In this document: positions 473-28,491 of the stretch, piece by piece | How the letters are laid out: every line of letters starts with the position of its first letter | Position numbering within the stretch: the stretch's first letter is position 1 | Assembly: GCA_001898035.1 (NCBI GenBank) | Contig: MKRX01000006.1 | Span: 248,436 to 312,435, forward strand | Length of the DNA: 64,000 bases | From: Armatimonadetes bacterium 55-13 | Lineage (GTDB): Bacteria > Armatimonadota > Fimbriimonadia > Fimbriimonadales > Fimbriimonadaceae | Direction: 5' to 3' | The notes under the pieces: generated by a model | Seen by the model: only the letters and a program-made list of their open reading frames with translations | Told to the model about the DNA's origin: nothing | Database searches by the model: none | Made by a program: the position numbers and the translations under genes

Positions 473-538
473 TTTATATGAAGTCCTCCATTGGAGATCG
501 AGCACCTAAGCTATCGTCGGCAATAGCGTCTCCCATGA

Positions 539-553
539 GCAATCTTTGTGCCA
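539..553 (-). promoter_or_regulatory. Sigma-54 (-24/-12) promoter of the pseudopilin gene
   Basis: Read on the minus strand this is TGGCACAAAGATTGC, an exact fit to the TGGCAC-N5-TTGC consensus with GG and GC ten bases apart. The predicted start is near 527, giving a leader of about 55 nt with a good Shine-Dalgarno before the ATG at 472. The rest of the 473-769 gap holds no gene that I can support; it must also carry the promoter of the divergent gene at 770. Confidence 0.75.
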
Positions 554-27831: not shown

Positions 27832-27892
27832 CACGGAACTCCCTAGATTTGGAACGCGCCTCGCATCGGTTTGTTACGCTTTCTCATGGAAA

Positions 27893-27907
27893 TGGCACGG
27901 AAGTTGC
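27893..27907 (+). promoter_or_regulatory. Sigma-54 promoter of small RNA 1
   Basis: TGGCACGGAAGTTGC fits the TGGCAC-N5-TTGC consensus exactly; GG at 27894-27895 and GC at 27906-27907 are ten bases apart. The predicted transcription start is near 27919. A shared CGGTTTG lies 27 nt upstream of the GG in this copy and 29 nt upstream in copy 2. Confidence 0.75.
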
Positions 27908-27918
27908 GACGCTTGTTT

Positions 27919-27975
27919 TCAACAACTCCTCCTCCCCCAAAAATCCCCTCTCCATTGGCATGAGGGGATTTTTTT
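27919..27975 (+). ncRNA. Small RNA 1: C-rich anti-Shine-Dalgarno RNA
   Basis: The predicted transcript is about 57 nt. It has a short A/C-rich 5' end, then an unpaired CTCCTCCTCCCCC at 27926-27938, then a terminator hairpin. It contains no credible coding sequence; a 25-codon frame (ATG at 27885) starts upstream of the predicted transcript. The C-rich stretch is complementary to GGAGGAG and GGGGGAGG ribosome-binding sequences, as in other C-rich bacterial regulatory RNAs. A near-identical arrangement follows 119 bp downstream. Transcript ends are predicted from promoter spacing and the T-run, not observed. Confidence 0.7.
27941..27975 (+). terminator. Intrinsic terminator of small RNA 1
   Basis: AAATCCCCTC (27941-27950) pairs with GAGGGGATTT (27962-27971) around an 11-base loop, with seven consecutive T (27969-27975). 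The plus-strand T-run is longer than the minus-strand one, which supports plus-strand orientation. Confidence 0.85.
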
Positions 27976-28012
27976 GTTGCTCGGCGGTTTGATTTTTGAA
28001 CATGCGACGGAT

Positions 28013-28027
28013 GGGCACGAGAATTGC
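28013..28027 (+). promoter_or_regulatory. Sigma-54 promoter of small RNA 2
   Basis: GGGCACGAGAATTGC has GG (28014-28015) and GC (28026-28027) ten bases apart and an intact CAC and TTGC. The predicted start is near 28039. The distance from GC to the C-rich motif is 18 nt here and 19 nt in copy 1. Confidence 0.7.
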
Positions 28028-28038
28028 CTAGACTCTTC

Positions 28039-28095
28039 ATCAATCTCCTCCTCCCCCAAAAGATCCTCTCCAACCACCTGGAGAGGATCTTTTTT
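28039..28095 (+). ncRNA. Small RNA 2: tandem copy of the C-rich RNA
   Basis: The predicted transcript is also about 57 nt: A/T-rich 5' end, the identical CTCCTCCTCCCCC at 28045-28057, AAAA, then a terminator. The C-rich core is conserved exactly, while the hairpin stem has diverged in sequence but not in shape. Two parts kept and one part drifting is what selection on a functional RNA would produce. No open frame of note lies within it. It ends just before the hisI stop on the other strand. Confidence 0.7.
28058..28095 (+). terminator. Terminator of small RNA 2, possibly also used by hisI
   Basis: GATCCTCTCC (28062-28071) pairs perfectly with GGAGAGGATC (28080-28089), extended by A-T pairs, around an 8-base loop, with TTTTTT after it on the plus strand. 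On the minus strand it follows the hisI stop by a few bases with a shorter T-run, so it may work in both directions. Confidence 0.85.
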
Positions 28096-28097
28096 GT

Positions 28098-28457
28098 TTA
28101 TTCAGCGACGCGTTCAGCGTTAATTTTCAGTTCGCCTTCGGCGACATCGCGAAAGAAGCAGCTTCGGTAATTCTCGTGACAGGCAGCGCCGACTTGCTCG
28201 ACTTGAATGAGTAGGGTGTCTTGATCGCAATCGACAGCGATGCGTTTCACATGCTGAACATGTCCGCTGGTTTCGCCTTTGACCCAGAAGCTTTGTCGAG
28301 ACCGGCTCCAGTAGGTGCATCTCCCGGTTTCAATCGTTCGTTCCAGGGATTCTCGATTCATCCACGCCATCATGAGAACCTCACCATTCTGATGGTCTTG
28401 GATGATCGCGGGGATCAGACCATCGGCGTTGAACTTGAAATTATCGAGCGGGGACAT
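28098..28457 (-). CDS. hisI: Phosphoribosyl-AMP cyclohydrolase
   Basis: The 119-residue enzyme opens the purine ring of phosphoribosyl-AMP in histidine synthesis. Visible signatures are [59 protein letters not shown], the metal-binding [11 protein letters not shown] and the zinc cysteines in [15 protein letters not shown] use the ATG at 28457 (MSPLDN). No hisE domain is fused and no other his gene is in the window. It is divergent from the GT39 gene, with the small RNA terminator just past its 3' end. Confidence 0.95.
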
Positions 28458-28491
28458 GGGATAGATTTTACTTGGCGGGCGGCGGTCCTTC

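Follow-up and report, generated by a model that had tools for sequence, protein, structure and literature searches.

Two tandem units, each composed of a sigma-54 promoter, a C-rich core, and an intrinsic terminator, lie on the plus strand of the window (the whole 64,000-nucleotide stretch analyzed), and the same arrangement occupies the syntenic place in the two genus relatives that were compared, the Fimbriimonadaceae MAGs ES-bin-173 (G001) and SJ693 (G002), which are 74-75% complete. RpoN and a sigma-54 activator are encoded in the window genome (G000, 4.5 Mb). These findings strengthen the claim of an earlier sequence-only reading that the units are tandem sigma-54 small RNAs, and we consider it very likely that they are genuine. 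The explanation that we favor as a whole, and hold to be reasonably probable, is that paralogous sigma-54 small RNAs pair through a C-rich core with a limited set of mRNAs and lower their translation. If expressed, they would be the first small RNAs reported for the Armatimonadota as far as our literature search shows (no report was found for this phylum, an absence that is not proof of novelty) and would represent an apparently independent case of a C-rich antisense core placed under sigma-54 control.

Layout of the two units

The locus is organized as follows, with the basis for each feature in brackets.

27893..27907, plus strand: sigma-54 promoter of unit 1, TGGCACGGAAGTTGC (sequence; counterpart at the syntenic position in G001 and G002)
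27919..27977, plus strand: predicted small RNA 1, 5' UCAACA... (inferred start 12 nt past the GC; YCAA at the +1 region; fold)
27926..27942, plus strand: C-rich core CTCCTCCTCCCCC and AAAA of unit 1 (repeat search, sequence reading)
27932-27942, plus strand: genus-invariant part of the unit 1 core, CTCCCCCAAAA (four-copy comparison)
27939..27975, plus strand: intrinsic terminator of unit 1, stem AAAAATCCCCTC/GAGGGGATTTTT, then a T-run (repeat search, fold)
28013..28027, plus strand: sigma-54 promoter of unit 2, GGGCACGAGAATTGC (sequence)
28039..28097, plus strand: predicted small RNA 2, 5' AUCAAU... (inferred start; fold, z -6.9)
28045..28061, plus strand: C-rich core and AAAA of unit 2, 17 nt identical to unit 1 (repeat search)
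28058..28097, plus strand: intrinsic terminator of unit 2, which may also end the convergent hisI (repeat search, fold)
28098..28475, minus strand: hisI (phosphoribosyl-AMP cyclohydrolase), convergent with the RNAs (Pfam PRA-CH; synteny)

By direct reading, the GG of promoter 1 is at 27894-27895, its GC ends at 27907, and the core begins at 27926, 19 nt past the GC, and is followed by AAAA; in unit 2, the GG is at 28014, the GC ends at 28027, and the core begins at 28045, 18 nt past the GC, again followed by AAAA. The places and spacings first described for the two units, running from the promoter to a start 12 nt past the GC, the core, AAAA, and the terminator, held up. A repeat search of the window returned the perfect 17-nt direct repeat CTCCTCCTCCCCCAAAA, shared by the units 119 nt apart, and two hairpin stems, both perfect. 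Each predicted RNA carries one core, has its own promoter and terminator, and is predicted to fold into a single-stranded core and a stable terminator (z -3.1 and -6.9 for the window units). Both window promoters are close to the sigma-54 consensus. The promoters of both units and both relatives have the GG-N10-GC form with a TGGCAC/TTGC consensus, CTGC replacing TTGC in G002, and no sigma-70-type promoter was found at the locus. We infer that the units are transcribed, that the RNAs start at the positions listed, and that this transcription depends on sigma-54.

The heptamer CGGTTTG, which had been counted as part of the shared layout, is present upstream of both units, at 27867 and 27985. 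Given that no copy was seen in the upstream DNA read from G001 and G002, it is probably not a functional part, and we rejected it as an enhancer. We likewise rejected the unit as a peptide gene, with no open reading frame seen that fits both units. Promoter 2 (CACGAGAATTGCC, window 28016-28028) also agrees at 12 of 13 positions with the hisI coding strand over the CHENY codons (28166-28178), a likeness that may have arisen by duplication or by chance.

Conservation in the genus and distribution beyond it

Conservation of the promoter and core in close relatives had been set beforehand as a test of the small-RNA claim, and a syntenic promoter-core-terminator was found in both other genus genomes, where a hisI search led to one copy each. 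The G001 copy has the promoter TTGGCACAGGGTTTGC, TCAAGCCTTACCTCTCCCCCAAAAC from the inferred start, and the hairpin GACCCCGC...GCGGGGTC; the G002 copy has the promoter TTGGCACGGGTTCTGC, then CCAACCTTATATCTCCTCCCCCAAAA, and then the hairpin AAGCCTCGCCAG...CTGGTGGGGCTT. The only neighbor common to all three genomes is hisI, and the element points at its 3' end in each, the unit 2 hairpin abutting the hisI stop codon. The upstream neighbor varies: the window has a HEAT-repeat gene, and inspection by eye suggests a ThuA-like gene for G001 and an amidase-like one for G002.

In all four copies, CTCCCCCAAAA lies 23-26 nt from the -12 C, with differing spacer letters, and the inferred first bases are UCAA, AUCAA, UCAA, and CCAA, such that YCAA is found in the +1 region of every copy. 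Terminator sequences are unrelated among the genomes, but all copies are predicted to fold (z -3.1 to -6.9). What the four copies share without change is CUCCCCCAAAA. In G001 and G002, the AAAA lies outside the terminator, and the core, single-stranded in the window units, lies within the loop of an additional short hairpin with differing stem letters. The G001 core has CCUCUCCCCC and lacks CCUCC.

In 0.8 Mb of the window genome, searched on both strands (the sample behind the target and promoter counts), the combination of a sigma-54-like site, a downstream C-rich run, and a terminator occurred at the two units alone, and it was absent from ten 400-kb first-order Markov-shuffled sequences (4 Mb). 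Of the three copies of the core 13-mer in the genome, the one outside the two units lies inside an ABC-transporter-like gene. Among the 113 genomes of the order, a pattern scan matched all three genus genomes and two others with a single match each, compared to four matches for the reversed control, and the element was found in no genome outside the genus. A four-copy profile run over the order gave E values below 1e-9 for the genus, its own members scoring well by construction, and 0.049 for the next best; those of the weak order-wide matches that were read lack the core and come from promoters or fragments of other genes. When the profile was built from the two window units alone and run over 55 kb, the G002 site came first, though with a weak score (E 0.026), and the G001 site was third, not above noise (E 2.1).

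Matches to the CTCCTCC pattern in the family that were read outside the genus were coding-like sequence or lacked the layout, and matches to the CTCCTCCCC pattern in the phylum were rejected, judged from the matched letters only. A pattern scan of 85,000 species returned the two genus MAGs and two others, an Armatimonadetes MAG and a Planctomycetaceae MAG, that look like chance, as do the weak Rfam matches up to E 10; no Rfam family reached the gathering threshold in the window. The element therefore looks like a real but genus-restricted regulatory RNA, and this restriction makes the evidence from conservation shallow. In a member of another family of the order, TTTTGGCACGGGATTTGC lies upstream of a short secreted-looking protein (G174:C20:23226, L061), with a second weak match 1.1 kb on.

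Probable sigma-54 control

RpoN is encoded in the genome (E 7.9e-36), and one strong match to a sigma-54 activator was found (E 3e-72), an NtrC-type response regulator located outside the window (L152:1078-2256, G000:C27). This protein has receiver (REC), AAA+, and lid domains and ends with the lid; no DNA-binding (HTH) domain was detected. A gene for a GAF/PAS-type histidine kinase, its GAF part judged by eye, precedes the activator gene. The genome's remaining matches to sigma-54 activators score weakly and probably represent other kinds of AAA+ protein. Given that the activator lacks a detected DNA-binding domain, sigma-54 control here may be enhancer-independent and proceed without a nearby enhancer, and such an activator fits the short upstream regions at this locus, although this fit is not proof. 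Activators of like shape, FlgR and CtcC, have been described without a DNA-binding domain (PMC3162934).

Other intergenic sigma-54-like sites in the 0.8-Mb sample lie 63-164 nt upstream of genes. One downstream gene was classified as a sigma-70-family factor, and others, judged by eye from protein starts, are prepilin-like, MscL-like (a channel), DnaJ-like, and CoA-transferase-like, which gives the impression of a possible stress or envelope regulon under sigma-54. At the window's left edge, the site TGGCACAAAGATTGC (538-553, minus strand; G000:C6:248973) lies 67 nt upstream of a prepilin-like gene. The strong site TTGGCACGAGGTTTGC (G000:C15:88726; L052:1500-1600), 64 nt upstream of the sigma-70-family factor gene, suggests a sigma-factor cascade. 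The site before the MscL-like gene (G000:C15:132499, outside the window) has TCAACAA at +1, a heptamer with which small RNA 1 is also predicted to begin.

Small RNAs under sigma-54 or two-component response-regulator control include Qrr, GlmY, and NrsZ (PMC7602753, PMC3162934). The parallel with Qrr drawn by the sequence-only reading stands as regards the sigma-54 control predicted here, and the likeness of Qrr and GlmY to the element is confined to that control. Vibrio Qrr1-5 form a set of paralogous small RNAs under activation by LuxO, an NtrC-type response regulator; they are longer and Hfq-dependent, and Qrr gave no Rfam match at the gathering threshold in the window and was not among the weak matches. 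GlmY/GlmZ, CrcZ, and NrsZ have two-component response-regulator control, with GlmY being sigma-54-dependent, and differ from the element in sequence and role. Their activators are enhancer-bound, and the activator here, with no detected DNA-binding domain, resembles FlgR and CtcC.

Proposed core pairing and competing explanations

Among described RNAs, the alpha-r14/cuckoo/CcsR group and C-rich RNAs such as RoxS come closest to the element. The precedents offered earlier were incomplete, given that the cuckoo/alpha-r14/CcsR RNAs with CCUCCUCCC in their loops had been missed, although those have RpoD- or RpoH-type promoters. In the alphaproteobacterial alpha-r14/cuckoo RNAs (NfeR1, SmelA075/SmelA099), each hairpin carries CCUCCUCCC and the stems are variable (PMC10746234, PMC3927594), and CcsR1-4 arise by processing of a ccaF1 precursor that is expressed from an RpoHI/RpoHII promoter (PMC8625941, PMC10253847). 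Like these, the predicted RNAs are short and have unpaired C-rich, anti-Shine-Dalgarno-like segments, variable stems, and repeated units. The CcsR name stands for the CCUCCUCCC motif, which lies within both window units, has the counterpart CUCCUCCCCC in G002, and is absent in G001. Differences are also apparent: the alphaproteobacterial RNAs have several loops per transcript or are released by RNase E from one precursor, whereas one core is present per predicted RNA here; the NfeR1 promoter is RpoD-type and that of CcsR RpoHI/HII, in contrast to a sigma-54 promoter per unit; the link to a DUF1127 gene is a feature of CcsR; the hosts are Alphaproteobacteria rather than Fimbriimonadaceae; and the invariant core here is CUCCCCCAAAA, unlike CCUCCUCCC. 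Given that the units are separate and that the promoters and invariant core differ, we do not claim membership in that group, but if the element works, it would by analogy act like a single-unit cuckoo RNA under sigma-54 control. RoxS, FsrA, and other Firmicutes C-rich RNAs resemble the element in having C-rich regions that bind mRNA targets; they have other promoters, and their sequence relation, compared via Rfam alone, gave no match. RoxS/FsrA-type RNAs are longer and structured.

The core had been read as anti-Shine-Dalgarno. GGAGG lies within 20 nt of the start in 39 of 606 genes compared to 13 of 606 control positions, making it about three times as common. However, it is near only 6% of predicted starts, strong Shine-Dalgarno sites being uncommon in this genome, and thus few mRNAs would be open to broad Shine-Dalgarno binding. 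The best duplexes at start codons had energies no better than those with shuffled cores, pairing runs of at least 7 nt numbered 19 at starts and 21 at control positions (about 606 genes), and core complementarity at start codons was not enriched. The anti-Shine-Dalgarno reading is therefore only partly supported: the core is unpaired and C-rich and GGAGG sites exist, though few, whereas the invariant piece is CUCCCCCAAAA, one copy (G001) lacks CCUCC, and complementarity at starts is unenriched.

This lack of enrichment would also agree with genuine sigma-54 small RNAs whose core binds another small RNA, as a sponge, or an RNA-binding protein instead of ribosome-binding sites, as would the invariance of CUCCCCCAAAA, including an AAAA outside the terminator in G001 and G002, when CCUCC is not invariant. 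We regard this as unlikely, with similar C-rich unpaired parts in alpha-r14/cuckoo RNAs and in RoxS/FsrA predicted or shown to pair with mRNAs. It is more improbable still that the RNAs damp translation globally by mimicking the 16S tail and binding Shine-Dalgarno sites broadly. The scarcity of GGAGG would leave few mRNAs affected and CCUCC is missing in G001, even though the CTCCTCC core resembles the 16S anti-Shine-Dalgarno tail and GGAGG is about threefold commoner near starts than at control positions. We give the least credence to the terminators simply serving hisI and the upstream genes, with promoter-like and C-rich motifs that are chance or yield non-functional transcripts. The abutting unit 2 hairpin and the convergence of all copies with hisI would suit such a role, but unit 1 carries a separate hairpin not adjoining hisI, promoter and core persist across three genomes in which flanks and spacer have changed, and the full layout is absent from shuffled sequence.

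In the explanation that we prefer, two paralogous free-standing RNAs of about 57-60 nt would be made, with sigma-54 RNA polymerase transcribing each unit from its own promoter as far as an intrinsic terminator belonging to that unit. They are probably activated by the NtrC-type protein, the single clear sigma-54 activator of the genome, which is partnered with the GAF/PAS-type histidine kinase and may work without a nearby enhancer. The unpaired C-rich segment, with its genus-invariant CUCCCCCAAAA, would most likely pair in trans with G-rich stretches, mainly at the ribosome-binding sites of a limited set of mRNAs, such that an active kinase would lower translation of the targets. We lean toward antisense action through the core and see the case for Shine-Dalgarno blocking specifically as evenly balanced; the targets and the translation block are conjectural. 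There is perhaps an even chance that the units represent a lineage-specific Fimbriimonadaceae family of tandem C-rich antisense RNAs turned on by a lone sigma-54 activator that has no DNA-binding domain, combining sigma-54 two-component control with a cuckoo/RoxS-like core.

The regulon can be tested directly by way of the invariant CUCCCCCAAAA and the single activator. If expressed, the RNAs would also be informative about target choice by such RNAs in a bacterium in which strong Shine-Dalgarno sites are rare. Autoregulation through the activator gene was rejected, only a weak duplex (-12 kcal/mol) being found at its start. No target stood out convincingly. Perfect 10-mer complements of the invariant core numbered 20 in the three genomes compared to 15 for the reversed control, with RNA genes set aside, which is not a clear excess, and most of them fall within open frames. 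Only one is placed shortly before the start of a plausible gene, 21 nt upstream of a multi-PAS sensor gene (G000:C2:220624).
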